Positions 8,427 to 51,977 of a stretch of 64,000 nucleotides of DNA are shown here, one piece after another. Origin of the DNA: Ruminiclostridium herbifermentans. GTDB lineage: Bacteria; Bacillota; Clostridia; Acetivibrionales; DSM-1351. A model generated the notes under the pieces. That model saw only the letters and a program-made list of their open reading frames with translations, made no database searches and had not been told where the DNA came from. Every line of letters begins with the position of its first letter. Positions within the stretch are counted from its first letter, which is position 1. Position numbers and translations under genes: made by a program. The stretch lies in NCBI RefSeq assembly GCF_005473905.2, contig NZ_CP061336.1, positions 3,650,501-3,714,500 of the forward strand, written 5' to 3'.

Positions 8427-11030
8427 TTAATAGTTCCTTTTCATTTTTGCAGCAAATATTATAGCAGCAATAAGAATAATTGATAACGCACCAATTAAAA
8501 TTATATTATTAGCTGATGTTCTTTGACCTACAGGAGCACCTGCACCAAAAACATTCATATCATTTCTAGGCTGTCTGCCCCGCTCCATACCACCAAAAGG
8601 ATTTGCACTCATTGTGGAAAGCTGCTCAACCTGTTCTAGTGTTAAACCAATAGAAAGCAAATTCTCTTTAACTTCATCAGTTACTTTACCATTTGCCTGC
8701 ATGATAATGCCCATAGCCTCAACAAAAAGCTCATTATCCAAACCATTAATCATTCCTTCTGGTCCACCAAAAGGTGCGTTTTGATTTTGTTCACCCATCC
8801 TGTTAGGAAAATCACCGAAACCTTTTCCTCCCATCATACTCCCAAGGTCTGATAATTTCAAATCTCCTGACGAAATAAGTTTATCTGCATTTGCACTTTG
8901 CTCTGCTGTTGTAGATGGAATGGTTCCGTCTAGCTGACCTTGTACGCTTTGAGCGCGTAAATTTCCAAGGGTAATAAATGCTGAAACAGCTTTTTTATAT
9001 TCGTCAAAGGTACAAAATGCAGTCGAATCATTTTTTACATAATCCGAAATGAGTGAATCTAATGAATTTAATTTGCTCTCAAATTTGCCATTAGCAAAAT
9101 ATTCGTCTATTAGCTGTTGTAAGTATTCATGATATCTTTCTAGATATTCTGAATTTTCAAATAGCTTTTTAATCAACGGTCTGCTTGACATTTCAACATC
9201 TTTTACTGGTGTATCAATAGGAAAGTTTATTACAGATGAAGCATTTCCACTTTGAAAACCACCCCAAGCTAGATTATAGTCCCAAGGAAGAATGGTAAGC
9301 TTACCTTCACTTTCATATAAATAATAGTTTTGCGCCATAGTTGAACTATAGCTGTCTAGATTGACAACAATTGTGTGTGCTGCAAGATATCTAAGAATCT
9401 GGTCTACATCAAAATATTCTTCCAAATCCTTACCTTCTGAAAGTGCTTTTAGTGCCGTTATTACACGCTGAAAATCATTCTTTGTTCCTTTTCCAACTAC
9501 ATTGTTAAAAATCGCACCGTAGCTTTCGGTATTATCGTCTATATATTCAAGACTACCGCCAGAACTGCCACGTCCTCCTTTACCTCCAAAGGCTTTGTTC
9601 CTGTCGCCCATTCCTCCATCCATTTGATTAGGAAATACAGGTCTGTCTGTATTATTGGATGAATTATTGTCAGAATTACTGTTACTTTCTTTTTGCTGTA
9701 CTGTTTGCTGTTCCCTATTATCTATTGAGTTTATTGAAAAAATAGGCTGTCGTTCCATATTACTTTGCGAGTTTGATGGTGGAACAATCTGTTGTTCCAT
9801 ATTATTCTGCATATTTGGATTTGCATTTTGTTGTTGCGAAATACCATCATCAGATGCATCGTTGGGTCTTTTGAACCTTTGAGACATTTGTGGTCTGTTG
9901 TTTTTATTTTCTACATTAGGTGTTTGGAGATTATCGCTTTCACCATTTGGCATTCTTGGTCTGTCGCCTTTATCCTCCTCATTTGACATTTGGGGTCTGT
10001 CGCCTTCACCTTCCCAATTAGGCATTTGGGGTCTGTCGCCTTCACCTTCCCAATTTGGCATTTGAGGTCTGTTACCATTACCCTCCCCATTTGGCATCTG
10101 GGGTCTGTTGTCTTCACCATTCCAATTTGGCATCTGGGGTCTGTCGCCTTCACCTTCCCAATTTGGCATTTGAGGTCTGTTACCATTACCCTCCCCATTT
10201 GGCATCTGGGGTCTGTTGTCTTCACCATTCCAATTTGGCATCTGGGGTCTGTCGCCTTCACCTTCCCAATTTGGCATTTGAGGTCTGTTACCATTATCCT
10301 CCCCATTTGGCATCTGGGGTCTGTTGTCTTCACCATTCCAATTTGGCATAGGCGGAAAATTCCCTCCTTGCTGCCAAGGCATTGCTCCCTTATTGCCACC
10401 CATGTCCATACTTTTTACATTATAAAGCATTCCTGCTGTATTTCCAAAAACTCGCTGTTCAAAGCTATCGTTATATAATTCTACTGCAAGATACAATCCC
10501 CAGTCTTCTCCATTTACTTTAATATCAGCATAACCAAAATAGGGTGAATCTACGCCTATTTCCTGCATCAACTCATAAGATACATACTCCTTCATGTAGG
10601 TATTGTCTCCAAGCATATTATTTACTACAAAGCTTTCAAGCCCAAAGCAGGTCTGCTCTTTAATGTATTCATTAAACTGTAATCTAAAACTATACCTATT
10701 ACTATTTGAATTTGCTACCTGAGTTAAGCTGGAGTTGCCCTTAGGCCTAATACCAACATTTGTAAATTTATTACCATTCACAATAACATCAGCCATTATA
10801 TACTGCTCACTCATAGCATTTTCAAGCATTTCATTCCAATCCTTCTCATCTGCAAGAATCTCAAGCGATATAATATCAGTTCCAAAAAGCTTAGATGAAT
10901 ATTCTGCTTGGGTTTTTATACTTGTATTTGCTAGCTGCATATTACTAATTAACACGAAAGCAACGCTTACTGAAAAAGCAAGAATTACAGCTATCGCAGT
11001 AATTATATTTATTTTTTTACTTTGTATCAT
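8427..11030 (-). CDS. CotH kinase family protein with Pro/Asn/Gly-rich repeat insert
   Basis: About 867 residues. An N-terminal hydrophobic helix (ITAIAVILAFSVSVAFVLI) and a C-terminal one before KMKRNY suggest the protein spans or is anchored in the membrane. The CotH parts are GIRPKGNSSLTQ near the N-terminus, VNLDSYSSTMAQNYYLYE and LPWDYNLAWGG. CotH proteins are atypical kinases first known from spore coats. A low-complexity insert of PQMPNW/PQMPNG units splits the CotH domain. ATG 11030 has GGGGTG 5 nt upstream and is preferred to 11075. It follows VTC and DUF4956 genes, a common genomic trio. Confidence 0.88.
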   Translation of the reverse strand: MIQSKKINIITAIAVILAFSVSVAFVLISNMQLANTSIKTQAEYSSKLFGTDIISLEILADEKDWNEMLENAMSEQYIMADVIVNGNKFTNVGIRPKGNSSLTQVANSNSNRYSFRLQFNEYIKEQTCFGLESFVVNNMLGDNTYMKEYVSYELMQEIGVDSPYFGYADIKVNGEDWGLYLAVELYNDSFEQRVFGNTAGMLYNVKSMDMGGNKGAMPWQQGGNFPPMPNWNGEDNRPQMPNGEDNGNRPQMPNWEGEGDRPQMPNWNGEDNRPQMPNGEGNGNRPQMPNWEGEGDRPQMPNWNGEDNRPQMPNGEGNGNRPQMPNWEGEGDRPQMPNWEGEGDRPQMSNEEDKGDRPRMPNGESDNLQTPNVENKNNRPQMSQRFKRPNDASDDGISQQQNANPNMQNNMEQQIVPPSNSQSNMERQPIFSINSIDNREQQTVQQKESNSNSDNNSSNNTDRPVFPNQMDGGMGDRNKAFGGKGGRGSSGGSLEYIDDNTESYGAIFNNVVGKGTKNDFQRVITALKALSEGKDLEEYFDVDQILRYLAAHTIVVNLDSYSSTMAQNYYLYESEGKLTILPWDYNLAWGGFQSGNASSVINFPIDTPVKDVEMSSRPLIKKLFENSEYLERYHEYLQQLIDEYFANGKFESKLNSLDSLISDYVKNDSTAFCTFDEYKKAVSAFITLGNLRAQSVQGQLDGTIPSTTAEQSANADKLISSGDLKLSDLGSMMGGKGFGDFPNRMGEQNQNAPFGGPEGMINGLDNELFVEAMGIIMQANGKVTDEVKENLLSIGLTLEQVEQLSTMSANPFGGMERGRQPRNDMNVFGAGAPVGQRTSANNIILIGALSIILIAAIIFAAKMKRNY
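9985..10350 (-). repeat. 108-bp tandem repeat inside the CotH gene
   Basis: Three near-identical 108-bp units (matching points at 10085, 10193 and 10301) encode 36 residues each, built from three sub-units of 11-13 residues around RPQMPN. Partial, more diverged units continue to about 9940. The unit is a multiple of 3 and nearly free of stops in other frames, which produces long spurious antisense frames. The copy number probably varies between strains. Confidence 0.9.
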
Positions 11031-11055
11031 GCTTTCACCCCATATCTTGGCATAT

Positions 11056-11727
11056 TTAAGCAGAATATTCTCCATTATAGCTTACAAGACAAGCATTGCT
11101 TACGCCATCTATAGTCAGCAATTCATTAAGCAGCTTTGCGGACATATCTGTGAGCCGTACTTCAACAGTGAGTTCAATGCCATTTTTTGAAACTGTCTTT
11201 GCCTTAATTAAGTTCTTCTTAGTTTTTGACTTTATTAATTCCATGCAATTATTTTCAGCTTTATCATTATCAAGATTGAGTACAATTATATATGGCGTGT
11301 CACTGCTTTTCTTATTTACAAACACCAATAAAATAATACCAATAAATATTGAGCCGATTATTCCTAGTGGAATTAGCCCCGCTCCTAAAACAATACCAGC
11401 AGCTATAGCCCAAAATAAAAATGCAATATCTAGGGGTTCTTTAACAGCTGTTCTAAAGCGAACAATAGACAAAGCACCAACCATACCAAGTGACAATATA
11501 ATATTTGATGTTACTGCTAGAATAATGAAAGTTGTAATCAATGTCATAGCCATAATGGAAACTCCAAAGGATGCTGAATACATAACCCCTGCAAAAGTTT
11601 TTCTATACACAAAAAATATAAATAGACCTATTGCAAATGATAACAGCATTGCAAGTCCTACATCTAATATTGAAAACTCTGAAGCTTTTTCCAAAAAACT
11701 TGATTTAAAAATATCATTAAATGTCAT
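11056..11727 (-). CDS. DUF4956 membrane protein
   Basis: 223 residues with four membrane helices in the first ~140, including the diagnostic GMVGALSIVRFRTAVKEP followed by FLFWAIAAG. A soluble C-terminal domain of ~80 residues with an ACT/ferredoxin-like pattern follows. DUF4956 genes commonly sit between VTC-domain and CotH genes. The molecular role is not established, but a link to polyphosphate synthesis or export is plausible. It starts 18 bp after the VTC gene, and its stop lies within the possible upstream start of CotH, so the three are one transcription unit. Confidence 0.9.
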   Translation of the reverse strand: MTFNDIFKSSFLEKASEFSILDVGLAMLLSFAIGLFIFFVYRKTFAGVMYSASFGVSIMAMTLITTFIILAVTSNIILSLGMVGALSIVRFRTAVKEPLDIAFLFWAIAAGIVLGAGLIPLGIIGSIFIGIILLVFVNKKSSDTPYIIVLNLDNDKAENNCMELIKSKTKKNLIKAKTVSKNGIELTVEVRLTDMSAKLLNELLTIDGVSNACLVSYNGEYSA

Positions 11728-14811: not shown

Positions 14812-16704
14812 ATGAATTTTATTGGTACATGGATGTTGCGTTTTGCTTTTGCATGTTGTCTTACTGCTTTCCTGCTTATTGTATTTAAAAAAGAAAGTGA
14901 TGAGAGCAAAAATCTTGGAATTCTAACAGGTGTTGTTTCCTGTTTCGGAGTTCTGATATCTTCAATTCTTCTATTTTATTCACTAATAAGTGGGATCTTT
15001 TCCGTTGAATATGTGTATCACAGTACAGAAAAATCACTACCGCTAATTTATAAAATTTCAGCATTCTGGTCAGGTAGTTCAGGTTCAATGCTTTTTTGGA
15101 CTTCAGCGTTTGCCGTTCTTCTTATAATAATTTATTTTAGAGATAGGCATAAAAATTCAACAAAAACCATATTTGGTGTTTTGCTATTTGTTATGACACT
15201 TTTTATGTTCGTTGTAACCTTTATAAATAACCCATTTAAACTGGTATCTGCTGAAAGTGATGGTTTTGGCCTTAACCCAGCACTACAAAGTTTAGGTATG
15301 GTCTTTCACCCACCTGTTATAATTATTTCGTTTTCATTTTTCTTTATTGCCTTTGCATATCAATTATTCGACATCAGAAAAAATACCGAAGAACATGTAG
15401 AAATCACTTGGAAATGGGCAATGTGGGGATGGATTCTTCTTACCTTTGGTATTGTAACCGGTGGAATTTGGGCTTATACCGAACTAGGATGGGGAGGTTA
15501 TTGGGCTTGGGATCCAATAGAGAATTCATCATTGGTTAACTGGTTATTTGCAACCGCTTTTATTCATGGTCTGCGAATCAAAGGCAAAAACAATAAACGA
15601 ATGAATTTCGTTTTGATATTTTTAACTGTTTTCACCATACTTGTGGGAACATACATTGCAAGAAGCGGTTTGCTAGAATCAGTACATGCTTATAGCAGTC
15701 GTGGCGTAACTGTGGTCTTCGGTGTGGTTTTATTGGTGCTTATATTATTTTTCATCATTTATAACTTCAAAATCAAAAAATTGCACGCTAACGACATATC
15801 AGATAATCATAATGAAAATTCGTTTAAAAAAATATTATTGGCTTTAATTAAGCCTAGTAATATGTTTTCAACACTGACTATTATCACAGCTGTATTAGTT
15901 TTCGGTGGTACTACTTTCCCCTTGTATGGAGGTCTCTTTGTAAGTGATGCATCAGCAACGCCAATAAGTTTCTATGAGTACGTTTTTGGAATTTATGGTA
16001 TCTTAATACTTCTAATTATGGCAATCAATCCTATGTTTTCACCTAAGAAGTTTCTTCTTATTCCAGGCTCTGCATGCGGATTAATAATCTTAGGATTAAT
16101 GCTGTTCCTTACTGAGTATAGCATTCTAACAAATTTGTGTTTGTCTGTATGTGCAATGCTTACAGTTAACTTGATTATACAACTTGTAATAAAATATAAA
16201 AATCGTACTGTACATTTAAGTCATACAGCAAATATATTACTGCATGCTTCACTTATAATAATGGCAGTTGGAGTTGCATGTTCTATGGGTATGCTTGTTA
16301 GCACCAATGAAACTCTAGAAAAAGGCAATGTCATGGTTGTTAAGGAATATGAAGTAAAATACAGGAACCTCTATTGGAAAGAGGAACCAGGAAAAACTAC
16401 AGCTGTTTCAGTGGTAGGTGTAAGCGGTCCAATGGGAAAAATCCAATTAAAACCTGAACTATCTTATTATCAAAAAATGAAAACAGCACACTCCAGAGCG
16501 GTAATAAAATCAACATTTAAAGAAGATTTGTATATTATTTTTGAAGGAATAGATGAGAATGACAACATATCACTAAAAGTCAAGATAGTAAAATGGATAA
16601 GCCTTATTTGGATTGGGAGTGTTTTACTAATATTAGGTACAGTACTGTATTATTTTTCTGAAACCAAAAAAACAAAAGATAAATTAATAAAAAAATTAGA
16701 ATAA
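14812..16704 (+). CDS. ccmF: CcmF/NrfE-type heme lyase (cytochrome c maturation)
   Basis: About 630 residues and many membrane helices. The heme-handling signature GWGGYWAWDPIENSSLVNWL (WWD motif), SAFWSGSSGSMLFW, a HPPVI histidine site and the ARSGLLESVHA segment are typical of CcmF, which attaches heme covalently to CxxCH cysteines of exported apocytochromes. A C-terminal periplasmic-type loop of ~100 residues precedes the last helix. ATG 14812 follows GGGGGAAATACAA, so the longer frame from 14713 is rejected. It is the first gene of an operon with two CxxCH proteins, its likely substrates. No ccmA-E or ccmC genes lie in the window. Confidence 0.88.
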   Translation: MNFIGTWMLRFAFACCLTAFLLIVFKKESDESKNLGILTGVVSCFGVLISSILLFYSLISGIFSVEYVYHSTEKSLPLIYKISAFWSGSSGSMLFWTSAFAVLLIIIYFRDRHKNSTKTIFGVLLFVMTLFMFVVTFINNPFKLVSAESDGFGLNPALQSLGMVFHPPVIIISFSFFFIAFAYQLFDIRKNTEEHVEITWKWAMWGWILLTFGIVTGGIWAYTELGWGGYWAWDPIENSSLVNWLFATAFIHGLRIKGKNNKRMNFVLIFLTVFTILVGTYIARSGLLESVHAYSSRGVTVVFGVVLLVLILFFIIYNFKIKKLHANDISDNHNENSFKKILLALIKPSNMFSTLTIITAVLVFGGTTFPLYGGLFVSDASATPISFYEYVFGIYGILILLIMAINPMFSPKKFLLIPGSACGLIILGLMLFLTEYSILTNLCLSVCAMLTVNLIIQLVIKYKNRTVHLSHTANILLHASLIIMAVGVACSMGMLVSTNETLEKGNVMVVKEYEVKYRNLYWKEEPGKTTAVSVVGVSGPMGKIQLKPELSYYQKMKTAHSRAVIKSTFKEDLYIIFEGIDENDNISLKVKIVKWISLIWIGSVLLILGTVLYYFSETKKTKDKLIKKLE

Positions 16705-16726
16705 GAAGAACAGGAGGGATTAAAAA

Positions 16727-18841
16727 ATGACAAAGGTTTCAAAACTATCTCAAAAGATTATTGTTGTTTTAGTACTAACAGCAATTTTCATGGCAACACA
16801 GATGTCTGCTGTATTGTCAGGTAGTATTGATTTTACAAAGCCAGAGTTTGACTTTGATAAAATCATATTTACCACTCATCAGCCATATTCAGGTTATGAA
16901 AACCATATGATTGACGGAAACTTTGGATTTTTAGGGGTAAAAGGGGGTGGCTTGTACATACTAAATGATGCATTTTCAGGCAGACCTACTGTAACAAATG
17001 TTTTGCAAAATTCTGTCTGTAAAAACGGACGTTACGCGGGGAAAAAGCTTTCAGGGGGAAACGTTTATTCCTTTGATTTAAGTTACGATGCAAAACAGAT
17101 TGTATTCGCCTATACTGATGCACAGAATTCATACGGTGTTTGGAATGAAAATACTACCTACCATATTTTCAAGGTGAATGTGGATGGAACAGATCTTACA
17201 CAGCTGACTGACGGAAGTGTAAATGATTTTGATCCTCGTTGGCTTCCAGATGGAAGAATTGTTTTCATTTCAGAAAGAAGAGGAGGATATGGTCGCTGCC
17301 ATCAGCGTAAAGTGCCTACCTTTAACCTTCATACAATGAATGCTGACGGTAGTGATATAAGATGTATAAGTTTCCATGAAACAAATGAATGGAGTCCTTG
17401 TGTTGATAATAACGGTATGGTTGCTTATACTCGTTGGGACTATGTAGACAGAGGTGCCACTCATCCACATTCTGCTTGGATAACTACTCCAGATGGCCTT
17501 GATGCAAGATCTATCACGTTAAATTATCCAAACTCAGGCGCTGAATGGTGGAAAAATGTACCAATGATGCAGAACTCATTGCGTGCAATACCAAATTCAA
17601 ATAAGTACGTTGCAACAGCTGCACCACATCACGCTCAAAATTATGGACCACTAATTATTATTGATCCAGATGTTGAGGATGATGACAACCTTTCTACAAT
17701 TACAAAAATCACCCCAGATTGTAAATACCCAGAAACAGAAGTTGCTGCAACAACAGATCAAAAATATGGAACTCCATACCCATTAAGCGAAGAATATTTC
17801 TTATGTGTATATGATCCAAACGCAAATACCAATGGTGCTAACAAACGCTATGGTATATATGCAATTGATACAAAAGGAAATAAGTCCTTACTATATAGCG
17901 ATCCAAATAGATCTTGCTACAGTCCTGTACCATTAAAGCCACGTCCTGTACCAAATATTATTCCAGGTACCACTAAACCTACAGGACAAGCTCCGGACGG
18001 AGTTGTATCTATAATGAATATTTATGATACTCTATTACCTTTCCCTTCCGGAACAAAGATTAAAGAACTTCGTATATGGCAGGTATATCCAAAAACTACA
18101 GTATTAGCAAACGATCCTATAGTAAGCTATGAAGGAACTGAAAGTCTATGGGCTGGTAGAAATACTCGAGGACTTTTAGGCAGCGTACCAGTTGAAGAAG
18201 ATGGAAGTGCATCATTCTATTTGCCAGCCGGTAAGCCTGTTTTCTTCCAAGCTGTAGATCAGGATGGAACTGCTGTTCAGACAATGAGGTCAGATACATA
18301 TCTCGTTCCAGGGCAAACACGCTTATTATGTCAGGGTTGTCATGAACCTGCCCGTAAGGCAGCACCTAATCCTGAAAGCGTACCTCTTGCATTAAGAAGG
18401 GAACCATCAAAAATTACACCTGATCCTTCACAGGGTGCAAGACCAATGAGTTTCCCAAGGCTTATCCAGCCTATATTAGATAAAAAGTGTATCTCCTGTC
18501 ATAATGGCTCGAGGGTTCCCGACCTTAGACAAGGAAATATAGATTCCCAAACAAAATGGTTTAGTTCCTACAAGAACTTAAAACCATATGTTGCACTATT
18601 TGATGAAATGTATCCGGGTGCTAACTGGGATCGTGTATACCCAAGAACTGAGCCAGGAAAGTTTGGTTCCAGAGCATCAAAACTATATCAAAAGCTGAAG
18701 ACAGGCCATGGTAATCTAACACAAGATGAACTTCATTCATTTATAATTTGGTTAGATTCCGGAATTGCGCCTTTCTTTGGAGACTATAAGAATATAGATG
18801 CCCAGTTAAGGGGTGAGCAGGTCGAGCCATCTCTGGAATAA
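16727..18841 (+). CDS. Secreted hydrazine-synthase-alpha-like protein with two heme c motifs
   Basis: 704 residues with a signal peptide (IIVVLVLTAIFMATQMSAVLS). Residues ~40-420 form a PD40/TolB-like propeller (FKVNVDGTDLTQLTDG, DFDPRWLPDGRIVFISERRGG, LHTMNADGSDIR). The arrangement resembles proteins labelled hydrazine synthase alpha subunit-like; that label denotes a fold family and does not show that hydrazine is made. Two CxxCH heme sites follow: CQGCH at 535 and CISCH at 588. It lies 22 bp after ccmF behind GGAGGG and just before a diheme dockerin protein. It is likely an extracellular or wall-side electron-transfer protein or oxidoreductase. It has no dockerin and no membrane anchor beyond the signal peptide. 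Confidence 0.8.
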   Translation: MTKVSKLSQKIIVVLVLTAIFMATQMSAVLSGSIDFTKPEFDFDKIIFTTHQPYSGYENHMIDGNFGFLGVKGGGLYILNDAFSGRPTVTNVLQNSVCKNGRYAGKKLSGGNVYSFDLSYDAKQIVFAYTDAQNSYGVWNENTTYHIFKVNVDGTDLTQLTDGSVNDFDPRWLPDGRIVFISERRGGYGRCHQRKVPTFNLHTMNADGSDIRCISFHETNEWSPCVDNNGMVAYTRWDYVDRGATHPHSAWITTPDGLDARSITLNYPNSGAEWWKNVPMMQNSLRAIPNSNKYVATAAPHHAQNYGPLIIIDPDVEDDDNLSTITKITPDCKYPETEVAATTDQKYGTPYPLSEEYFLCVYDPNANTNGANKRYGIYAIDTKGNKSLLYSDPNRSCYSPVPLKPRPVPNIIPGTTKPTGQAPDGVVSIMNIYDTLLPFPSGTKIKELRIWQVYPKTTVLANDPIVSYEGTESLWAGRNTRGLLGSVPVEEDGSASFYLPAGKPVFFQAVDQDGTAVQTMRSDTYLVPGQTRLLCQGCHEPARKAAPNPESVPLALRREPSKITPDPSQGARPMSFPRLIQPILDKKCISCHNGSRVPDLRQGNIDSQTKWFSSYKNLKPYVALFDEMYPGANWDRVYPRTEPGKFGSRASKLYQKLKTGHGNLTQDELHSFIIWLDSGIAPFFGDYKNIDAQLRGEQVEPSLE

Positions 18842-18879
18842 TTTAATTGGCAAAATATTAATAGATGGGAGTGTAAAAA

Positions 18880-21492
18880 ATGAATAGGTATACAAATAGA
18901 AAATTAATTCCCATGATACTTTGCATAGCAATAGCTATTACTATAGGAAGCTTCCTGTTTCCAGAAAGTAATATAGGCTATTCGGCTGACAATACATATT
19001 TTTCACCATTTGATACTGCATATTCTCCTGATGGCAGTATGATTGCGGTTTCAGATACAACAAAAGCACAGGTGGAAATACTGAATTCATCAGACGGCAA
19101 AGTAAAAAAGATAATACAATTGGATGGACAGCCAAAAGCTCTTGCATGGGATGGAAATGAAGCAATATATGTTTGTGAGTACGGAGCAGGAACTGTTGCC
19201 GAGGTTAATCCAGTATCAGGGCAGGTTACAAGAAGATTTGAAACAGGTTCAAAACCTCTTGGAGTTGCAATAGTAGACGGCAAGCTTGTGGTTTCTGATT
19301 ATGGCCTCAAAAAAGTATCTGTTGTTGATTTATCCTCTGGCAAAATTGAAAAGAATGTTACAGTAAATGATTATCCATACTTATTGGACGGTACAGTTGA
19401 TGGAAAATATGCAATTATTGGCCATGCATTGCCTTCAGGAAATGCATTCGAACCAAAATATGCTGCATCAGTTTCATTTGTTGACATGAGTACCTACAGT
19501 GTGGCTGCAAATATTGTACTTCCACAGGGTTCATCAAATGTAAGAGGTGTAAAGTGTTCTCCTGACGGCAAGTGGGCGTATGTTCTTCACACATTTGGAA
19601 AAACTTCTCTTCCTACCACTCAAATAACAAAAGGATGGACATTGACAAATGCTGTTACTATTATAGATATTTCCAATAAGAATATATATACTACATTTTT
19701 ATTGGATAGAATGATGGAAGGAGCAGCAGATCCATGGGGACTTACAATTTCTGATGACAGTAAAACCATGTGGGTTAGCGTGTCAGGAACACATCAGGTG
19801 CTGAAGGTTGATTTATATGGTTTACATCAGCTTTTACAAGGAAATTTGGACGGTGATAGCGGCTCAGGATTCAACCCAAATACATATTACAAGATAGTTA
19901 ACAGAAATAGCGGAAAAGCAGTTGACGTACCAAACGGTAATACTGCAAACAACATACAATTGATTCAATGGGATAATGTAGGCAATAACAACCAACAATT
20001 TAGGTTCGTAGTTGATTCTGACGGATATTATACCATTATTAATAGAGCAACAAACAAAGCATTGGACAATGCAGGTGCTACAAATGATAATTCAGCTTTA
20101 GTTCAATGGGATGTTACTTCTTCTAACAATCAAAAATGGAAATTAATTGACCTTGAAAACGGTTACTACAAGCTTCAAGTAAAATCCAGCCAGAAATATT
20201 TGGACGTAAGTGGTGGTTCAGTTGCTAACAATGCTGGTTTAGTAACAAACAGCAGCAGTACAAGCTATAGCCAGCAATGGACAATATCAAAAGTTGGTGC
20301 ATCTGGTTCAAGCAATTATTCTCTATTGTTCCGTTCAAAAGCAGGTTTTGAAAAACCATATTCAGATATATGGTTAGCAATCAAAGCTAATCCAGCTAAA
20401 AGAAGCGATTTAAAATATGATCTCGGAGCATTATGGGGAGCAGGTTTGCTTGATAAAATAGAACTGCCTGGCCAAGGACCTAGAGGTATTTCATTATCTC
20501 CTGATGGAAAAACTGTAGCAGTAGGCGCATATTTTGCAGGAGAAGTATATTTTATTGATACAGCTACAAATACATTAAAAAGTACAGCAAAACTTGGTAT
20601 TCAACCAGAAGAAACCCTAGTTAGAACTGGTGAACGCATATTCTATGATGGCTCTACTACTACACAAAAATGGCTTAGTTGTGCTTCCTGCCATCCTGAA
20701 GGCAGAGCTGACGGTCTGAATTGGGATATGCCAAATGATGGTATAGGTAATACTAAAAATACAAAATCAATGTTGAATGTATTTGACACACCTCCTGCTA
20801 TGTGGCGTGGAGTAAGAGATGATGCCCATGTTGGTATAAAGGCTGGCTTTAGATTTATAAAATTTAAAGAACCAACCCAACAGGAACTTGATGCTGTTAC
20901 CGCATATGTTCAAAGTCTGTCAGCAGAACCTGATCCTTATTCAAATGAGGATGGCACAATGACAGCTGATGCCATTGCCGGAAAAGCCATTTTTGAAAGC
21001 AGCGAAACAAAATGTGCAAGCTGTCATTCAGGTCCGTTCTATACTGATTTAAAGGCCCATGATGTAGGTACTAAGGATATTCTTGATCCTGACGGATTGT
21101 ATTATACACCTACACTTAAGGAAATGTGGAGGACAGCCCCATATTTACATGACGGTTCAGCTGCAACACTCCGTGAAGTGCTAACAACAAGGAATGTTGG
21201 CGATAAGCATGGAAAAACCTCACATCTTACTGAAGAGCAACTCTCTCAGTTAGAAGCATACATGCTTCAGATAGATAGTAACCCTGTTCAATCAGTAATA
21301 AAAGGTGATGTAAATGAAGATGGCGAATTCAACGCACTTGACTTTGCATTACTCAAAATGTACTTGATGGGAGAAGCTACCTTGACTGATAAACAGAAAA
21401 TAGCAGCCGATGTTGATAGTAATGGAGAAGTCGATGCAATTGACTTTGCTATAATGAAACAAGTTATACTTGGAGTCAAACCAAGTTTTTAG
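18880..21492 (+). CDS. Dockerin-bearing MauG/cytochrome c peroxidase-like diheme protein with inserted ricin-type lectin domain
   Basis: 870 residues. A signal peptide precedes a YncE/NHL-like beta-propeller (~35-330: SPDGSMIAVSDT, SPDGKWAYVLH). A ricin B-like beta-trefoil (~337-475, with QKW and QQW motifs) then interrupts it, and the propeller resumes (GPRGISLSPDGKTVAVGAYF). The diheme domain has CASCH at 601 and 712 and the MauG/CCP-type APYLHDGSAATLREVL. A complete type I dockerin starts near 809 (GDVNEDGEFNALDFALLK and DVDSNGEVDAIDFAIMKQ). It should therefore be heme-loaded, secreted and docked on a scaffoldin. Third gene of the ccmF operon, with the ribosome site GGGAG. The substrate (peroxide, quinone or sugar) is not deducible. 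Confidence 0.88.
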   Translation: MNRYTNRKLIPMILCIAIAITIGSFLFPESNIGYSADNTYFSPFDTAYSPDGSMIAVSDTTKAQVEILNSSDGKVKKIIQLDGQPKALAWDGNEAIYVCEYGAGTVAEVNPVSGQVTRRFETGSKPLGVAIVDGKLVVSDYGLKKVSVVDLSSGKIEKNVTVNDYPYLLDGTVDGKYAIIGHALPSGNAFEPKYAASVSFVDMSTYSVAANIVLPQGSSNVRGVKCSPDGKWAYVLHTFGKTSLPTTQITKGWTLTNAVTIIDISNKNIYTTFLLDRMMEGAADPWGLTISDDSKTMWVSVSGTHQVLKVDLYGLHQLLQGNLDGDSGSGFNPNTYYKIVNRNSGKAVDVPNGNTANNIQLIQWDNVGNNNQQFRFVVDSDGYYTIINRATNKALDNAGATNDNSALVQWDVTSSNNQKWKLIDLENGYYKLQVKSSQKYLDVSGGSVANNAGLVTNSSSTSYSQQWTISKVGASGSSNYSLLFRSKAGFEKPYSDIWLAIKANPAKRSDLKYDLGALWGAGLLDKIELPGQGPRGISLSPDGKTVAVGAYFAGEVYFIDTATNTLKSTAKLGIQPEETLVRTGERIFYDGSTTTQKWLSCASCHPEGRADGLNWDMPNDGIGNTKNTKSMLNVFDTPPAMWRGVRDDAHVGIKAGFRFIKFKEPTQQELDAVTAYVQSLSAEPDPYSNEDGTMTADAIAGKAIFESSETKCASCHSGPFYTDLKAHDVGTKDILDPDGLYYTPTLKEMWRTAPYLHDGSAATLREVLTTRNVGDKHGKTSHLTEEQLSQLEAYMLQIDSNPVQSVIKGDVNEDGEFNALDFALLKMYLMGEATLTDKQKIAADVDSNGEVDAIDFAIMKQVILGVKPSF

Positions 21493-21573
21493 TACATTAG
21501 ATTTTATTACATAAGTTTTGAATCACTAGTTTTTAATACAGCTTTTCTTATAATACAGTTATTGTACCTATTT

Positions 21574-21616
21574 AACACAGCCGGCTAAAACGATTTAGCC
21601 GGCTGTGTTATTATTT
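21574..21616 (+). terminator. Terminator of the cytochrome operon
   Basis: AACACAGCCGGCTAAA and its exact complement form a 16-bp stem with a 4-nt ACGA loop, followed by ATTATTT. It is the strongest hairpin in the window. It lies 80 bp after the dockerin cytochrome stop and may also stop transcription of the opposing gene. Confidence 0.9.
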
Positions 21617-40313: not shown

Positions 40314-42617
40314 CTAATTATTTGTTACCTTTTCAAAGTTATTTCCACCATTGCCGCTGGCTTGACACCCTATTAATGTAAGCTTTCCGGGATTGCTATT
40401 CCATGTGAAGCCATGCTTTTTGTTGTTAAAGGCTTTGCAATTTATTAGTGTGTGGTCTACGCTTATTTTTGAGCCTCCAAGCTTAAATCCATTTCCATCG
40501 CTATCAGTGGTAGATATACCTTCTTCAGTTCTTCCATTGTAGCTTGCTTCACAGTTTTCTAAGTATACTGAGCCAATTGGTCCTGTATCATCCTTTGTGT
40601 ATAGGTCCCAACCGTCATCAATATTATACTTTGATACACAGCCTATAAATTTATTGCCGCTGCCACATGTAAGCTTAGCTGCAAATCCGTCTGCATCTTC
40701 GCCATCGTCAGGGTCATAGTTGTTGTGAGAGTAGCAGTTGATAATAGTGTTATTGCTTGGCCACTGGCTTATAGAATTATATGCTGAATTATATCTAGAC
40801 AGCTGAAGACCTGTATCCTTATTTGCATAGAATTCACAGCTGTCAATGGTATTGTTGTGACCTGCCAGCAGCATACCATTGTCACCGGCCTTTTGAATTT
40901 TTATACCTTTAATATTCCAATAGTTCCCTGCTAGTACTACCCCTCTATTTGATGAATTAAATGCCATAGATGAGAAATCCAATACAGGCTTTTCATTGCC
41001 TAGAGCAGCGATATTTTTAGTACTTCCTGCACTGCCGTTATTTCCTTCTGCAATAATTACAGTTTTGGAAAAATAATAAGTACCACCCTTTAAATAAATA
41101 GTTTTTCCAGGCTTAATACTATCAATAGCCTGTTGTAAGGTGATTGGACCATTTGGTTCTATTGTAATGTTACCATCTTCTGGTGGATTATCATCACCTG
41201 GCGTTGTACTATTATCAACAGGAAAAACTGATATTAGTCCAAGCAAATATTTTTTAAAAATGGCATAATCAAGGGCAGTTACTGCTTTATCACCGTCTAG
41301 ATCGTAAACCTCTATATCTATGTAGCTTATTTGTCCTAACAGATACTTCTTATAGTTTGCATAGTCTATTGCATCAACAAAACCATCACCGTTGGTATCT
41401 CCATATACTATTTTGCCTCCTGGGTTTTGTCCTGGGTTTTCTGGGTTTTGACCTGGATTATCTGGATTTTCACCGGGGTCTTCATCGCCAATATTACTTA
41501 TTCCAAGATCAATAACACTGTTATTGGAGCCATCAAGTCTTCCTATACCCGCATATCTTGCTACTATTGACTTTACATCATTTACACTTGATAAAACATT
41601 TGAGTAGGAATATGATGGGGTAAAGCTGCAATTTGAAGTTGTGGGTTGATTGCCCTTACAATTATCAAACACATTGTTCCTTACATTCCATAAGCCGTTC
41701 ACATCGCTGTTATATGCACCTATAGGGCCTGCAGCAAGTCCTGATTCTGAATTTATGCTTCCAGAACCAACTCTTTCAAAATAGTTCCCCTCAATAAGCA
41801 GCTGTGCTCCCATTCTGGAATTTACTGCACTATTCAAAACATCGCCAAAGTAATTATTAAAGATGTGTCCTGTACCAAATCTATAACTTGGGGTTCGTTC
41901 TTTAATGTTTTTAAATATGTTATGGTGATACGTCATTTTTCTGTCGTAGTTGTCACTGTCTGAACTTCCCACTAAACTGCATTTGAAAGAGTCATGAAAG
42001 TAGTTCCACGACACTGTAATATATGCACTATCCTTCTTGCAATCAAGCAAGCCATCGTACCAGTCAACGTCTCCTCCAGCAATATCACCTTTTGTGTCTA
42101 CTACCCCGTCACCATTGCAATCACCAAGCATATTGTAAAGTTCGCAATGGTCAATCCATATATTTTTGCTGTTCTCAATTCCTATACAATCCATAGGAGC
42201 TAAGCAATTATGTATTTTCAGGTTCTGAACGATTATGTTATTGGATTTTACAATGTTAATTCCCACACCATCTAATTCACCGCTAGTTCCAACACCAGTA
42301 ATGGTGATGTTTGAAACTTCCTTTACTGCAATTGCTTCTGTTCCAGAAATCTTCCCGTTTATTTTTATAATAAGCGGAGAAGTATCTTTATCCTTTTTTC
42401 TTTGGTTTAACAGATTATTTATGTCTGTTAGGTTTTTAGATGTTACTACCTTACCCCCTGTTCCTCCTGTAGTACCACCATTTAGTGTTGCAAAACCCAC
42501 TAGTCCAAAAAGTTCACTGCCAGTTGCAGCTTTAACATCAGCACCACCGCTAAAGCCAACAACTGACTGTGCTAGCACTAAGCCAGCTAAAATGATAGCT
42601 TTAAATCTTTTGAACAT
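40314..42617 (-). CDS. Cellulosomal double pectate lyase (PL1 - dockerin - PL9-like)
   Basis: About 767 residues. After a signal peptide (ILAGLVLAQSVVGFSGG) comes a PL1 pectate lyase domain (~30-370). It has the calcium-site and helix motifs IWIDHCELYN, VSWNYFHDSFK and TYHHNIFKNIKERTPSYRFG, the last with the catalytic Arg. An Asn/Pro/Gly linker leads to an internal type I dockerin (GDTNGDGFVDAIDYANYKKY, DLDGDKAVTALDYAIFKKY). A second right-handed beta-helix follows, PL9-like (LQQAIDSIKPGKTIYLKGG, ADGFAAKLTCGSGN, DDGWDLYTKDD). Both domains would cleave polygalacturonate by beta-elimination. The start follows GGAGG; the ATG at 42623 is too close. Confidence 0.92.
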   Translation of the reverse strand: MFKRFKAIILAGLVLAQSVVGFSGGADVKAATGSELFGLVGFATLNGGTTGGTGGKVVTSKNLTDINNLLNQRKKDKDTSPLIIKINGKISGTEAIAVKEVSNITITGVGTSGELDGVGINIVKSNNIIVQNLKIHNCLAPMDCIGIENSKNIWIDHCELYNMLGDCNGDGVVDTKGDIAGGDVDWYDGLLDCKKDSAYITVSWNYFHDSFKCSLVGSSDSDNYDRKMTYHHNIFKNIKERTPSYRFGTGHIFNNYFGDVLNSAVNSRMGAQLLIEGNYFERVGSGSINSESGLAAGPIGAYNSDVNGLWNVRNNVFDNCKGNQPTTSNCSFTPSYSYSNVLSSVNDVKSIVARYAGIGRLDGSNNSVIDLGISNIGDEDPGENPDNPGQNPENPGQNPGGKIVYGDTNGDGFVDAIDYANYKKYLLGQISYIDIEVYDLDGDKAVTALDYAIFKKYLLGLISVFPVDNSTTPGDDNPPEDGNITIEPNGPITLQQAIDSIKPGKTIYLKGGTYYFSKTVIIAEGNNGSAGSTKNIAALGNEKPVLDFSSMAFNSSNRGVVLAGNYWNIKGIKIQKAGDNGMLLAGHNNTIDSCEFYANKDTGLQLSRYNSAYNSISQWPSNNTIINCYSHNNYDPDDGEDADGFAAKLTCGSGNKFIGCVSKYNIDDGWDLYTKDDTGPIGSVYLENCEASYNGRTEEGISTTDSDGNGFKLGGSKISVDHTLINCKAFNNKKHGFTWNSNPGKLTLIGCQASGNGGNNFEKVTNN

Positions 42618-42860
42618 TTTCATCCTCCTCCAAAAAAAATTTTTGTCTATTCAAATTTAATATCCTAAAAATGTTATAATACCTTCATAACTGCATTTTT
42701 AAGGATATCTTTGAATAATACAAATGTTTTTTAATCATCCTCCTTTTGGTATATTACAAGTTATGTATAAAACCACTGACATTTAATTTGTAAATAATTT
42801 TTTCTTATATAAACATAATTTAATATATCTAAATTTAACGAATATGTCATGAAATTACAC

Positions 42861-46933: not shown

Positions 46934-48721
46934 CTACATAAAACTTAGTACAAATGAAAGATCTAGTAACAATACCACTCTCTTGCCTTCATTTAATTTA
47001 GCAATGGAATCTACACACTTATCAATTCCATTTCCATCGAGTATAGCTGAAACCTTTTCAAGGATATTATTTGGTAGCTTTAAAACTTCAGTGGCATAAT
47101 CTATCATTATCCCAATTCGCCTGTGATTGAACTCCACAACTAAAAACTTTGAAGATTCACTGGATGATGATTCATCATTAAACATTGTTTTTAAGTTCAA
47201 AACAGGAATCACTTCTCCACGAAGATTTACCATTCCATCAATAAAAGCCGGAGCTCCTGGAAAATGAACAATATCACTTATTCTATTTATTTCTTTCACA
47301 TATTTGATTCTTATTCCAAACTCATTATCTCCTAACTTAAATACAACAACATGTTCAAGGTTAGATTCTGTTTCATCATTTACTGTCAATGTACTGTTCA
47401 TTATTTCTTTACTACTATCTATAGATAAGAAGCTGTTAACATCTTCAGCTGTAATAAGATTAAAAGTGTTCAATAGCATTACAAGTCTTGTTCCATTATT
47501 TAATTCCAAAAATCCTTTTATATATTCCATTTTGGACAAATTTGCAATTTGGTTACTCAAAGAATCTTTGCGTGTTCTTATAACCTGGGACACTTTATCA
47601 ACAATAACTCCAAATTTATAATTTCCATTATCTACAATTACAATACGGCTATACTCATTTAATTGATTTGAATCTACGTTTAATAATGTGCCTAAATTTA
47701 TTACAGCAAGAAGCTGATTTCTGATAGAAATAACACCTGCAACATAGTCTGGCGTATTTGGGACCTTCACAATTTCAGGTATTCTTATAATTTCATTTAC
47801 ATCGTTAACACTAAATGCGTATTCTTCTTCACCAATACTAGATATAATAAACTGCTCTTCTTCCTGTGATAATTTATTTGAAGCATTGTCAGATATATTC
47901 TGTATTTGATTTTGATTTATGTATTCTTGACAATTATTCTCAAGCTTACTTAATTTAGACGCGTCTAACACCATAATAATTCTTTTCCCATCATTCAATA
48001 ATAGGATACTAGTTATTACTCCACCGTCAATTTCTTTAATACTTTCAGGCGGTTCCTTAATTACCGATTCATCAACACTAAGTACTTCTGAAACTTTGTC
48101 AGCAATTATCCCAACCTTTTTTCCATTAATTTCGATTATAACAATCCTTGTTCCCTCTTCGTAATCAGATGCAGCTATACCAAACAATTTTCTACTGTCT
48201 ATTACTGGCAACAACTCTCCTCTTAAGCAGCATAAGCCTGTGATAAAGTCAGAAGCATTAGGTACTTTAGTCATTAATGGTAAACGAATGATTTCTTTTA
48301 CATTAGATATTTCCAATGCAAATTCTTCATCTTCAATCCTGAAAATTACCATATCTGTCTTTTTTGTTTCTGCTACTAAATCCTCTTCTTCAGCTTTGTA
48401 AGACACCTTGTCAACATCTTTATTAGCTTTCGGAAGTATTTGGACTATTTCTTCTTTATTCTCATTTTTGATTTTATCAGTCTTTTTGTTTTTTACAACT
48501 TTCTCATCAGCAACAACTTTTTCATTCAAGTTCAATAATATATCCTGTTGACCTTGTATGGCTTCATTTTTGTTTAAAGACTTCTCTTGCGTAAGATTTT
48601 CAATATTTGTCACTGGGATTTCAACATCAATTTGCTTTTTAGCCATTTGCTTCTTGCTCGTCATTTCCTTTTTCATCTTTTCAAAATTAGTATTCCCTTT
48701 TCTACTGCCTCTTGTTGCCAT
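46934..48721 (-). CDS. Triple CheW-domain protein with basic N-terminal extension
   Basis: About 595 residues with three CheW domains in tandem. They start near TDMVIFRIEDEEFALEI, QFIISSIGEEEYAFSV and VVFKLGDNEFGIRI, each followed by the family pattern VPNxxxxxxGxxxxRxxLLPVI. A ~120-residue charged, Lys-rich N-terminus precedes them. CheW links receptors to CheA. Three domains in one chain could cross-link several receptors or kinases in an array. ATG 48721 follows GGTGAACATTG and lies within the end of the ParA gene, so the two are translationally coupled. A second triple CheW lies at 57.7 kb. Confidence 0.9.
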   Translation of the reverse strand: MATRGSRKGNTNFEKMKKEMTSKKQMAKKQIDVEIPVTNIENLTQEKSLNKNEAIQGQQDILLNLNEKVVADEKVVKNKKTDKIKNENKEEIVQILPKANKDVDKVSYKAEEEDLVAETKKTDMVIFRIEDEEFALEISNVKEIIRLPLMTKVPNASDFITGLCCLRGELLPVIDSRKLFGIAASDYEEGTRIVIIEINGKKVGIIADKVSEVLSVDESVIKEPPESIKEIDGGVITSILLLNDGKRIIMVLDASKLSKLENNCQEYINQNQIQNISDNASNKLSQEEEQFIISSIGEEEYAFSVNDVNEIIRIPEIVKVPNTPDYVAGVISIRNQLLAVINLGTLLNVDSNQLNEYSRIVIVDNGNYKFGVIVDKVSQVIRTRKDSLSNQIANLSKMEYIKGFLELNNGTRLVMLLNTFNLITAEDVNSFLSIDSSKEIMNSTLTVNDETESNLEHVVVFKLGDNEFGIRIKYVKEINRISDIVHFPGAPAFIDGMVNLRGEVIPVLNLKTMFNDESSSSESSKFLVVEFNHRRIGIMIDYATEVLKLPNNILEKVSAILDGNGIDKCVDSIAKLNEGKRVVLLLDLSFVLSFM

Positions 48722-49478
48722 CAATGTTCACCAGCCTTTCAACAATATGATCAAACTGCCTCGCAGCTTCCCTATCACTTTCATAAACCGTTCTGCCTAG
48801 CTTCCCGGTTTCGGTAATCTTTACTCTACGATATATTGGTTCTGTCAATACATCACTTCCAGAAAAGAATTCTTTAACGAATTCAAGGTTTTCTTTACTA
48901 TCGCTAGTTCTCTCATCATACATGTTAGGTACCACCAGTGAAATCATAGTTGAATCCAGTCCTAAATCTGAAAGGTATTCGTAAATATTCCCAATCGCCC
49001 TTACCGATGCAGCCTCAACTTGAACTGGTACAATAATTTTATCTACGTAATATAACGCAGCATCATTTATCCTGCTTCTTTGTGGTCCGCAATCTATAAT
49101 AACATAATCATAAGCGCTACTTTCTACTTCTTTAAGCTTATTAAATAAATATGAACTTATATTATGTTCTTTATAAAGTTCTAAATTTATTAGATCAATA
49201 CGTCTGGAAGGTAATAAATCAAGGTTTTCTCTTGCATGAATAATACATTCGAATAGACTTACTCTTTCATTTTCAACTGCAATATTATAAAAGCTTTTTT
49301 TATAGTCTTCTGAAGTAAATCCAAGAAAAAGACTTGCGTCATTTTGTCCATCCATATCTATAAGCAATACCTTTTTCCCTTTTATCGCAAGACCGTGTGC
49401 AACATGCACCGCGATGGTACTTTTACCAATGCCACCCTTATTATTTAATACAGCAAACTTTTTTAATCTTCCATCCAT
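48702..49478 (-). CDS. ParA/MinD-family ATPase of a chemosensory operon
   Basis: 258 residues. The deviant Walker A NNKGGIGKST holds K14 and K19. Walker A-prime LLIDMDGQND and Walker B YVIIDCGPQRS follow. ParA proteins form ATP-dependent dimers on DNA or membranes and position cargo. Within chemotaxis operons such ATPases (PpfA, ParC) place cytoplasmic or polar receptor clusters. It overlaps the last CheW gene by 20 bp. The receptor in this operon is soluble, so a role in segregating a cytoplasmic cluster fits. No ParB gene is present. Confidence 0.88.
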   Translation of the reverse strand: MDGRLKKFAVLNNKGGIGKSTIAVHVAHGLAIKGKKVLLIDMDGQNDASLFLGFTSEDYKKSFYNIAVENERVSLFECIIHARENLDLLPSRRIDLINLELYKEHNISSYLFNKLKEVESSAYDYVIIDCGPQRSRINDAALYYVDKIIVPVQVEAASVRAIGNIYEYLSDLGLDSTMISLVVPNMYDERTSDSKENLEFVKEFFSGSDVLTEPIYRRVKITETGKLGRTVYESDREAARQFDHIVERLVNIDGNKRQ

Positions 49479-49741
49479 ACTGATTTATCTCCTTGCGTAC
49501 CTTAGGTCATATTTCCAGTCCAAGATTGAGTTCAAAATGCCCAAAAGATGAGTTTATATCAGCAATTTGGGGTTTAACTTGACTGATACTCACCTATATT
49601 TTCCCATATAAAATAAGGATTATTTTTTTCTAGATATTTATGGCTGTCTTTTTGATACTCTAATGAATAACATGAAAATCATCGAAAAACATAATCTTTA
49701 AAGTTACACCATACCCTCAACATTAAATATATAATTTCATT

Positions 49742-50926
49742 CTAATTATGAACAAGCTGCATAATATCAAGAGGATTTATTATCAGAACAACCTTTCCAT
49801 TACCTAACAAAGTTGAGCCTGATATTCCCGGAATTGATGATAGTTGTCCATCAAGTGTCTTCACAACAAATTCCTGTTCACTTTTAAGCTTGTCTACAAA
49901 AATGGCATATTTCTCCGCACCGTTTGATATAATAACTGCATTTAACTCATCTTGTGTATCATCAATTTCATCCATAAGAAAAATTTTACTTAACCATTCT
50001 GCACCAAGTACTTCACCTCTTAAGTGAGTAAAACATTTACCATTATACATATGAATATTGTCCTTTTTTATCTTTGCAGTTCCGTATATATACTCCAAAG
50101 GGAAAATATAGCTTTCGCCGGACACTTCAACAATTAATCCTCTAGAAACTGCTAACGTCAGTGGCAGTTGAATAGTCATTTTTGTTCCTTTATCTACTTC
50201 GCTCTCTATGGTTACATTTCCATTAATTTTCATAATATTGCTTTTGACAATATCCATACCAACTCCCCTACCGGATACTTCAGTAATTTGTCTAGCTGTA
50301 CTAAAACCAGGAAGGAAAATAAGATTAACCAATTGAGTTCTATTCAACAACTCAGCTTCACTTCTTGAAATAAAACCCTTTTCAATAGCTTTTTCCTTTA
50401 ATTTTTCAGCATCCATTCCTTTTCCATCATCTTCTATTTCTATATACACATTTTTATTTTTATTGTAAGCCCTTAATATAATTTTGCCTGTTTCGGCTTT
50501 TCCTTTTAATGATCGTTCTTCAGGATTTTCAATACCATGGTCTGCAGCATTTCGTATTAAATGAACTAATGGATCACTAATTTGCTCGATAATGGTTTTA
50601 TCAATCTCAGTACTTTCTCCTTCCATAATCAAATCCATTTTCTTACCGGTACTCTGAGCTATATCTCTTACCACACGGGGCATTTTTTGAAATACAGTTC
50701 GCACCTCTACCATCCTTATGGACATAATAGCATTCTGAAGTTCATCCGAGATTCTGTTTACATAAGCTCCTACTTGCTTTACTTCTTTAGACATCTCAGG
50801 TAGATCATACTCCACATTTAGCTTTGTAGAAATATGCATAAATGAATTCTTTGCAATTAACAACTCAGAAATCATATTCATCATTTTGTCAATTTTTTCT
50901 TGGCTTACTCTGATACTCTGGGCCAC
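49742..50926 (-). CDS. cheA: CheA kinase part: dimerisation, ATPase and CheW-like domains
   Basis: 394 residues: P3 (SIRVSQEKIDKMMNMISELLIAK), P4 ATPase (PLVHLIRNAADHGIE, EIEDDGKGMD, GRGVGMDIVKSNIMKINGN) and a P5 CheW-like domain. On its own it has no phospho-accepting HPt. The only available start is a GTG at 50926 with no ribosome site. The previous frame ends 6 bp before it after an A_AAA_AAC heptamer, and a -1 shift there joins the two frames into one full CheA. It is therefore best read as the 3' half of cheA, made by frameshifting or cut off by a one-base deletion. Confidence 0.88.
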   Translation of the reverse strand: MAQSIRVSQEKIDKMMNMISELLIAKNSFMHISTKLNVEYDLPEMSKEVKQVGAYVNRISDELQNAIMSIRMVEVRTVFQKMPRVVRDIAQSTGKKMDLIMEGESTEIDKTIIEQISDPLVHLIRNAADHGIENPEERSLKGKAETGKIILRAYNKNKNVYIEIEDDGKGMDAEKLKEKAIEKGFISRSEAELLNRTQLVNLIFLPGFSTARQITEVSGRGVGMDIVKSNIMKINGNVTIESEVDKGTKMTIQLPLTLAVSRGLIVEVSGESYIFPLEYIYGTAKIKKDNIHMYNGKCFTHLRGEVLGAEWLSKIFLMDEIDDTQDELNAVIISNGAEKYAIFVDKLKSEQEFVVKTLDGQLSSIPGISGSTLLGNGKVVLIINPLDIMQLVHN

Positions 50927-50931
50927 GCTAC

Positions 50932-51960: not shown

Positions 51961-51977
51961 AATTTCACTCCTCTACC

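Follow-up and report, generated by a model that had tools for sequence, protein, structure and literature searches.

A dockerin-bearing pair of hydrazine synthase-like genes next to a CcmF-type gene in Ruminiclostridium herbifermentans

The genes at the locus

This study concerns three adjoining genes in a 64,000-nt stretch of Ruminiclostridium herbifermentans DNA (NZ_CP061336.1, positions 3,650,501-3,714,500, forward), which is called the window here and in whose numbering coordinates are given. The three open reading frames (ORFs) lie on the + strand with intergenic gaps of 22 and 38 bp and encode a CcmF-type heme lyase, a homologue of the alpha subunit of anammox hydrazine synthase (HZS), and a homologue of the HZS beta and gamma subunits in fused form (betagamma), to which a lectin and a dockerin are joined. 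An earlier note on this DNA had reported three co-directional genes with these gaps, a CcmF-type gene, a complete type I dockerin and one strong terminator, and all of these agree with our results. The second and third products, which it called a propeller protein and a MauG-like diheme protein, turned out to be more than those names say. The features of the locus are listed below, with lengths in amino acids (aa).

14812..16704, + strand: CcmF-type heme lyase gene, 630 aa (PF01578 3.7e-31, CcmF_C 5.2e-19)
16727..18841, + strand: HZS-alpha-like diheme propeller protein, 704 aa, with an N-terminal hydrophobic (signal-like) helix (PF18582 2.1e-21)
18056..18346, + strand: HZS_alpha middle domain, aa 444-540 (PF18582)
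18329..18343, + strand: CxxCH at the heme alpha-I position, aa 535-539, CQGCH (motif and 5c2v_A alignment)
18488..18502, + strand: CxxCH at the heme alpha-II position, aa 588-592, CISCH (motif and 5c2v_A alignment)
18880..21492, + strand: HZS-betagamma-like fusion with lectin and dockerin, 870 aa (NF052342 1.5e-46; 5c2v_C 6.8e-26; 5c2v_B 3.1e-24)
19006..19839, + strand: beta-like propeller, main part, aa 43-320, the last blade being at about aa 520-575 (5c2v_B match, model, Foldseek 3.3e-23)
19879..20286, + strand: ricin-type lectin, aa 334-469, inserted before the last propeller blade (PF14200 4.4e-32; ThreeFoil 3pg0 1.5e-28)
20611..21270, + strand: gamma-like diheme region of the MauG/cytochrome c peroxidase (CCP) type, aa 578-797 (Pfam, NCBIfam and PDB matches)
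20680..20694, + strand: CxxCH gamma-I, aa 601-605 (motif and PDB alignment)
21013..21027, + strand: CxxCH gamma-II, aa 712-716 (motif and PDB alignment)
21301..21468, + strand: type I dockerin, aa 808-863 (PF00404 5.1e-16)
21573..21610, + strand: intrinsic-terminator-like hairpin, 17 pairs (terminator scan)

The mechanically called CcmF ORF begins at 14713, and the start at 14812 was chosen since the proteins of six relatives are 625-635 aa long. Its PF01578 match is to Cytochrom_C_asm; the HPP, WGGYWAWDP and SVHAY motifs were present in all seven proteins compared, the WWD motif is there, and the score against TIGR00353 was under the curated cut-off (282.7 vs 569.05). Seven terminator-like sites were found against 4.9 expected, and the next-longest stem after the 17-pair hairpin has 9 pairs. 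Promoter-like sites were not above chance (33 vs 38.8 expected).

Homology of the pair to anammox hydrazine synthase

The 704-aa protein has two CxxCH motifs and a PD40 match, in keeping with its description as a propeller protein, but its identity as a homologue of HZS alpha had been missed. Besides the Pfam match to HZS_alpha, it matched 5c2v_A in the PDB with E-values of 2.2e-10 by sequence and 2.6e-25 by profile. An AlphaFold model (AF2, 49 sequences) with a predicted local distance difference test score (pLDDT) of 88.3 gave 5c2v_A as the first Foldseek match (3.2e-28, TMq 0.66), and the next different protein was TolB, a propeller, at 8.9e-12 and TMq 0.32. The propeller stretch with the conserved motifs barely matched 5c2v_A by sequence when taken alone (E 0.12), which sets it apart from anammox HZS, and the score against the curated anammox family NF052339 was far from its cut-off (56.2 vs 800 bits).

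The 870-aa protein also carries two CxxCH motifs and matched CCP_MauG (PF03150, 9.9e-9; 36.4 bits, cut-off 25.6); the fused HZS beta and gamma homology, the propeller and the ricin-type lectin had been overlooked. NF052342 was matched at 1.5e-46, although far under its curated anammox cut-off (158.9 vs 1250 bits), both 5c2v_C and 5c2v_B were matched in the PDB, and 5c2v_B ranked first in the Foldseek search with the model, which is usable for the propeller, lectin and dockerin only. The gamma part matched the MbnH family (1.7e-18; 66.8 bits, curated cut-off 362.85) and MauG (6.3e-13; 48.6 bits, curated cut-off 443.85) as well. MauG, bacterial CCP and MbnH share the diheme domain and the tryptophan position with the protein, which differs from MauG and MbnH in its fusion to a propeller, its HZS-alpha-like partner and its scores under their cut-offs. 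Since its HZS match in NCBIfam was stronger, the third gene was not taken for a plain MauG. The lectin (RicinB_lectin_2) sits between the main propeller and the last blade, and the dockerin is complete with both repeats (profile positions 1-56 of 57). Cellulosomal enzymes with a ricin-type module and a dockerin share the lectin, the type I dockerin and the N-terminal signal-like helix; here a heme redox module takes the place of the glycoside hydrolase.

Taken as a pair, the two proteins share with anammox HZS (HzsA, HzsB, HzsC; 5c2v) the alpha propeller, middle domain and cytochrome c end, the beta propeller, the gamma diheme part and the 2+2 CxxCH motifs. They differ from it in the added lectin and dockerin and in their clostridial, cellulosomal host. 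The beta-gamma fusion itself has a counterpart in the HZS of Scalindua japonica (PMC12758564).

The residues of anammox HzsA were taken from PDB alignments and from PMC12758564 and PMC12607021, and counting along the 5c2v_C chain reproduced the published numbering. The tyrosine alphaTyr591, a heme ligand according to both papers, is not present, since CHYGSY of HZS aligns with CHEPAR here (5c2v_A alignments). In the 5c2v_C alignment, gamma Cys102, Cys105 and His106 correspond to Cys601, Cys604 and His605. The position of gammaHis144 is taken by Trp642 (W in 7 of the 8 rows reaching the position, S in one), gammaCys165, the third thioether, by Lys661, and gamma Asp168 by Glu664 at a position that is not conserved. 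By alignment, the Trp agrees with peroxidase, MauG and published non-anammox HZS homologues (PMC12758564). The zinc ligand alphaCys303 is not kept in all anammox bacteria (PMC12758564). His661 of the alpha protein, kept in 87 of 88 rows, lies one position off alphaHis772, the distal heme alpha-II ligand, by ungapped count. Because alphaTyr591 and gammaCys165 are missing and gammaHis144 is replaced by Trp, hydrazine synthesis by the pair is unlikely.

Conservation was then read from an alignment of 88 rows, including three duplicates, built from the best 80 of 294 confirmed loci of the alpha family, which had been searched with the stretches aa 58-65 and 216-222 as patterns. Twenty-four of 32 tabulated positions, most of the 32 having been picked beforehand as conserved, were invariant in 88/88 rows. 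Eighteen of the 24 fall outside the search-pattern stretches: W139, H146, R190, C191, R236, W237, D238, Y239, D241, R242, H248, W251, H301, H302, E336, M520, H539 and H592.

Pairs of this kind have been described outside anammox bacteria. PMC12758564 (December 2025) reports HZS-like pairs from non-anammox Planctomycetota and Desulfobacterota; the betagamma homologues that it describes extend to Bacteroidota and Bacillus. Its clades I-IV share with our pair the adjoining alpha and fused betagamma, the lack of Tyr at alphaTyr591 and the Trp at gammaHis144. Clade I mostly has eight extra hemes and clades II and III are without alpha-II; by these descriptions, the present pair differs from clades I-III in having both alpha heme motifs, only two motifs in betagamma, and the lectin, dockerin and CcmF in addition. 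Unlike in the non-anammox clades, no FG-GAP protein was among the three scanned ORFs flanking the operon. None of the words Clostridi, Bacillota, Ruminiclostridium, Pseudobacteroides, Spirochaet, dockerin, cellulosom, lectin and CcmF is matched in the main text of that paper, where the one match to Firmicutes concerns another matter. Among the literature matches listed, there was no report of a cellulosomal cytochrome or a clostridial HZS-like protein. Dockerins outside cellulose degradation, in cytochrome-rich anaerobes, are known from anaerobic methanotrophic (ANME) archaea, where they are named on transporter-binding and S-layer proteins and not on cytochromes (PMC9012536).

Distribution, selection and genomic setting

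The alpha gene was found in 8 of 58 genomes of the order, and in all eight of these owners a betagamma gene with lectin and dockerin adjoins it and the CxxCH sites are kept. In a sample of the class, PF18582 was present in three of 391 genomes, all of this genus. The class-wide NF052342 search (2/391 genomes, propeller-part matches only) was set aside, as it missed the window's own genome at that threshold. Comparison of gene order across relatives, which the earlier note had proposed, gave the order CcmF-alpha-betagamma in six of the seven other owners, and the locus is therefore more than a chance arrangement. In Anaerobacterium, the seventh, a chorismatase-like gene, ResB and a CcsA-like gene come after alpha-betagamma, and ResB and CcsA-like genes are also near the pair in one metagenome-assembled genome (MAG) of Spirochaetales. 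These ResB and CcsA-like genes (L025:12360-14010 and L021:558-2305) are found at loci where CcmF does not adjoin the pair, which looks like a swap of the maturation gene.

Besides these eight genomes, alpha-betagamma pairs were found in two Spirochaetales MAGs and two Bacillota MAGs. Lectin and dockerin were recognized on betagamma by Pfam in one of the Spirochaetales MAGs, as in the eight owners, and by alignment in the other. In the Bacillota MAGs, the betagamma gene is cut by the contig end (L023) or encodes a 531-aa relative with one CxxCH and without lectin and dockerin (L024:3556-5151). A Proteobacteria MAG encodes a single 1471-aa protein with four CxxCH and both betagamma-like (hmm 712.8) and alpha-like (793.2) parts (L078:3592-8007). 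In an 85-row tree, made by a quick method with no bootstrap, the rows from Clostridia, Spirochaetales, the Bacillota MAGs and L078 formed one clade (SH-aLRT 98 with L078, which was flagged as a long branch, and 99 without it), and the family around this clade is otherwise mostly from the Planctomycetes-Verrucomicrobia-Chlamydiae (PVC) group. Since the Anaerobacterium alpha groups with those of Spirochaetales (SH-aLRT 97), the tree suggests transfer.

Compared with five of the seven relatives, dN/dS was 0.04-0.08 for alpha, 0.11-0.13 for betagamma and 0.12-0.15 for CcmF; for distant pairs, dS was close to saturation. These ratios indicate purifying selection on all three genes.

The operon's CcmF is the only PF01578 match in the window's genome. 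A PF01578 protein was found in 8/8 genomes with alpha and in 2/8 chosen genomes without it, and in these two (G018 and G004) as well as in P. cellulosolvens a CcmF gene adjoins a gene whose product, 1005-1016 aa long, has a dockerin and a single CxxCH. This arrangement looks like a second dockerin-cytochrome unit, in which CcmF is followed by the one-CxxCH protein with Ig/PKD-like domains and a dockerin (L109:9405-12431, L110:9610-12627, L111:8945-11995). The P. cellulosolvens protein of this unit had PDB matches to its dockerin only.

The window's genome has 37 cohesin matches. The betagamma dockerins of P. cellulosolvens and of a further owner (G030) are 58-64% identical to the dockerins of three neighboring enzymes and 25-34% identical to the other six betagamma dockerins, and yet the whole betagamma proteins are 72-73% identical to that of the window. 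In G001 the corresponding values are 70-79% to three neighbors and 30-53% to the other seven betagamma dockerins. By sequence identity, the betagamma dockerin in two lineages resembles those of neighboring cellulosomal enzymes rather than those of its orthologues. P. cellulosolvens is reported to integrate enzymes by type II interactions (PMC4582573); its betagamma dockerin is called type I by Pfam.

Carbohydrate-related genes and domains surround the family. In G001, G030 and P. cellulosolvens the operon is flanked by dockerin proteins with glycoside hydrolase family 43 (GH43) and carbohydrate-binding module family 6 (CBM6) domains, in the latter two also with an acetylesterase domain, and in both R. 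papyrosolvens genomes a CBM6-dockerin protein adjoins it. Among 49 alpha proteins, NPCBM was present in seven and F5/8 type C in five. The nearest neighbors of the mostly PVC alpha genes included a sulfatase in 12/75 and a 3-keto-disaccharide hydrolase in 3/75, the scan covering 75 of 120 listed neighbors with no background rate for sulfatases. The neighborhoods and the carbohydrate-binding domains favor a carbohydrate-linked role and name no particular substrate. With regard to the functions offered in the earlier note, the operon adjoins dockerin-bearing GH43/CBM6 genes in three relatives, and this points to hemicellulose-associated chemistry as the candidate.

Genes for FkbO/Hyg5 chorismatase-like or L-PSP proteins were seen near dockerin cytochrome units (L025:11185-12342, L021:2668-3840, L109:6270-7319, L111:12156-13283). 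Anaerobacterium and one Spirochaetales MAG have the chorismatase-like gene close to the pair; in L109 and L111 it stands by the other cytochrome unit. The window's own genome has a relative some 4 kb before the start of the window (G000:C1:3645172-3646206). The gene was not included as a member of the unit; its strong relatives occur in owners and non-owners alike and the nearest is outside the window.

The three scanned ORFs flanking the operon in the window encode an NlpC/P60-type protein, a product with no Pfam match and a galactokinase-like protein. Elsewhere in the window, 8427-11075 encodes a protein with a long tandem run of PQMPN-type repeats, presumably similar to CotH-type proteins. 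A secreted-looking protein with dockerin repeats in its middle (40314-42623) and a long chemotaxis-like gene run with proteins built of repeated similar parts (46934-61954) were read from the sequence.

A candidate cellulosomal oxidoreductase

The trio is confirmed and conserved, and its identity is more surprising than the first reading suggested. We consider it somewhat probable that the operon encodes an extracellular tetraheme oxidoreductase which is attached to the cellulosome, has a common ancestry with anammox hydrazine synthase and acts on hemicellulose-associated material. Outside the membrane, CcmF would attach heme to the four CxxCH sites. The alpha-like protein, with two hemes and a propeller bearing a strongly conserved polar site, would pair with the betagamma-like fusion of propeller and MauG-type diheme part, as the HZS subunits do. 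Because betagamma carries both the lectin and the dockerin, the pair would dock on scaffoldin cohesins and be kept in contact with plant polysaccharide, and electrons would pass through the gamma-type diheme part to or from the alpha site. The reaction may be a redox modification of hemicellulose or of material bound to it; the reaction and its direction are the most speculative part. Complex formation, heme loading and cellulosome attachment are what we infer here.

A wider form of this proposal is doubtful in our judgment. In it, the pair would represent a new type of enzyme on cellulosomes, namely an anaerobic oxidoreductase with heme and the HZS fold that attacks hemicellulose or its cross-links, and would be a functional strict-anaerobe counterpart of the oxygen-using polysaccharide oxidases. 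It would be a branch of a large, uncharacterized, mostly PVC, carbohydrate-linked HZS-alpha-like family whose stock gave rise to HZS.

Several observations weigh against a cellulosomal oxidoreductase, and heme supply is its weakest point. Ferrochelatase HemH was found in 0/16 genomes and AhbD above its cut-off in 0/16, all eight owners being among them. In the window's genome, AhbD is matched best by a radical-SAM/SPASM protein of 508 aa that is nearer to other families, and the siroheme-decarboxylase match (27.9 bits with frame neighbors, barely over the cut-off) is an Lrp-type regulator. In P. cellulosolvens, two siroheme-decarboxylase-like genes lie beside NirJ2- and NirJ1-type radical SAM genes (L112:5984-9087), probably a siroheme branch. 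The radical SAM pair had been considered as AhbC/AhbD, that is, own heme synthesis, and this was dropped: the genes pass the NirJ1 and NirJ2 cut-offs and not those of AhbC/AhbD, and the gene scoring 342 bits in the AhbD search, below the cut-off, is of the NirJ2 type. For none of the eight owners did the sequence searches turn up any known final step of heme synthesis, and their heme must therefore be acquired or be made by an unrecognized route, or else the sites stay empty. Two further searches carry no weight here: the NEAT domain, for heme uptake, was found in 0/16 genomes with no positive control scoring, and other cytochromes (PF13442) were found in 0/8 genomes, in a search that also missed the third gene.

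The earlier note had held that the cell builds its own heme-protein module at the cellulosome. The CcmF gene, the dockerin and the cohesins agree with this, but the last step of heme synthesis does not appear. It had also taken a lack of heme supply and of other Ccm components in the genome as one half of a case against such a module, and much of this genomic half was indeed found: besides HemH and AhbD, CcmC/CcsA is absent by PF01578 in the window's genome; no search was aimed at ccmA, B, E, G and H.

Other points on the same side concern the partners and the cellulosome. A betagamma match was found in the flanks of only 3 of 73 further alpha loci, apart from the L078 fusion, with flanks of at most 6 kb that were often ended by contig ends; two of the three were strong (L060 and L075), one was weak (L034, 28.2 bits), and all are placed elsewhere in the tree. 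The alpha protein may therefore work alone or with other partners. The diheme part of the betagamma model has a pLDDT below 50. The likeness to local dockerins does not hold in Ruminiclostridium, where the betagamma dockerin of the window shares 37-48% identity with three other window dockerins and 57-62% with the other Ruminiclostridium betagamma dockerins, and where the two R. papyrosolvens genomes show 41-43% identity to a neighbor's dockerin. In neither the window nor G019 was a dockerin gene seen beside the operon. Sulfatases are common in PVC genomes. The term cytochrome had no match in the main texts of five papers on cellulosomes (PMC6628489, PMC6507058, PMC5748583, PMC10701907 and PMC11557425), two of which are on cellulosome proteomics.

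Other explanations were weighed against the same evidence. In the first, which is unlikely and may be true together with the proposed oxidoreductase, betagamma is a MauG/MbnH-type modifier of alpha that oxidizes conserved Trp residues or a Tyr into a cofactor or metal site. The MbnH and MauG matches of the gamma part and the Trp at position 642, that of MauG/CCP, fit this explanation, as does the invariance of Trp139, Trp222, Trp237, Trp251 and Tyr239 in all alpha rows, although residue 222 is within a search stretch. However, these residues are kept in alpha loci that rarely have betagamma nearby, and a dockerin and a lectin would be odd on a maturation enzyme.

It is quite unlikely that the pair clears oxidants such as peroxide or nitric oxide (NO) at the cellulosome and so shields a strict anaerobe. 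The CCP_MauG score over its cut-off and the Trp at the gammaHis144 position, as in peroxidases (PMC12758564), would suit this role, but the alpha protein, the lectin and the hemicellulase neighbors in relatives would be left unexplained. Decidedly unlikely, too, is extracellular electron transfer, with the pair as a conduit through which electrons pass between the cellulosome or cell surface and minerals, partners or humics. Four predicted extracellular hemes and, in relatives, the one-CxxCH dockerin protein of the second unit are consistent with a conduit, yet there are four hemes only, two of which belong to alpha, a protein that looks like an enzyme and has a strongly conserved polar site.

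Lower still in probability is that the proteins are made but heme-free, as binding proteins without heme or with another tetrapyrrole. The missing HemH and AhbD in the owners and the NirJ-type genes of P. cellulosolvens favor this explanation, which gained slightly at the expense of the proposed oxidoreductase because the sole owner thought to make heme was removed. Against it stand the CxxCH motifs kept in all owners with low dN/dS and the PF01578 protein in each of them, and uptake of heme from other microbes is common. Finally, a true hydrazine synthase or NO plus ammonia chemistry is very improbable, since the overall homology and fold are offset by the residue replacements and by scores far under both curated cut-offs.

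The CcmF gene travels with its likely client proteins in a genome with no other PF01578 protein, and the finding raises the question of the source of heme in these bacteria. Cultivable hosts such as R. papyrosolvens and P. cellulosolvens offer a place to ask what HZS-like proteins do outside anammox. If the proposed oxidoreductase is real, a conserved and selected dockerin-bearing heme enzyme would bring redox chemistry to cellulosomes, which are described as hydrolytic machines, in organisms unable to use oxygen.

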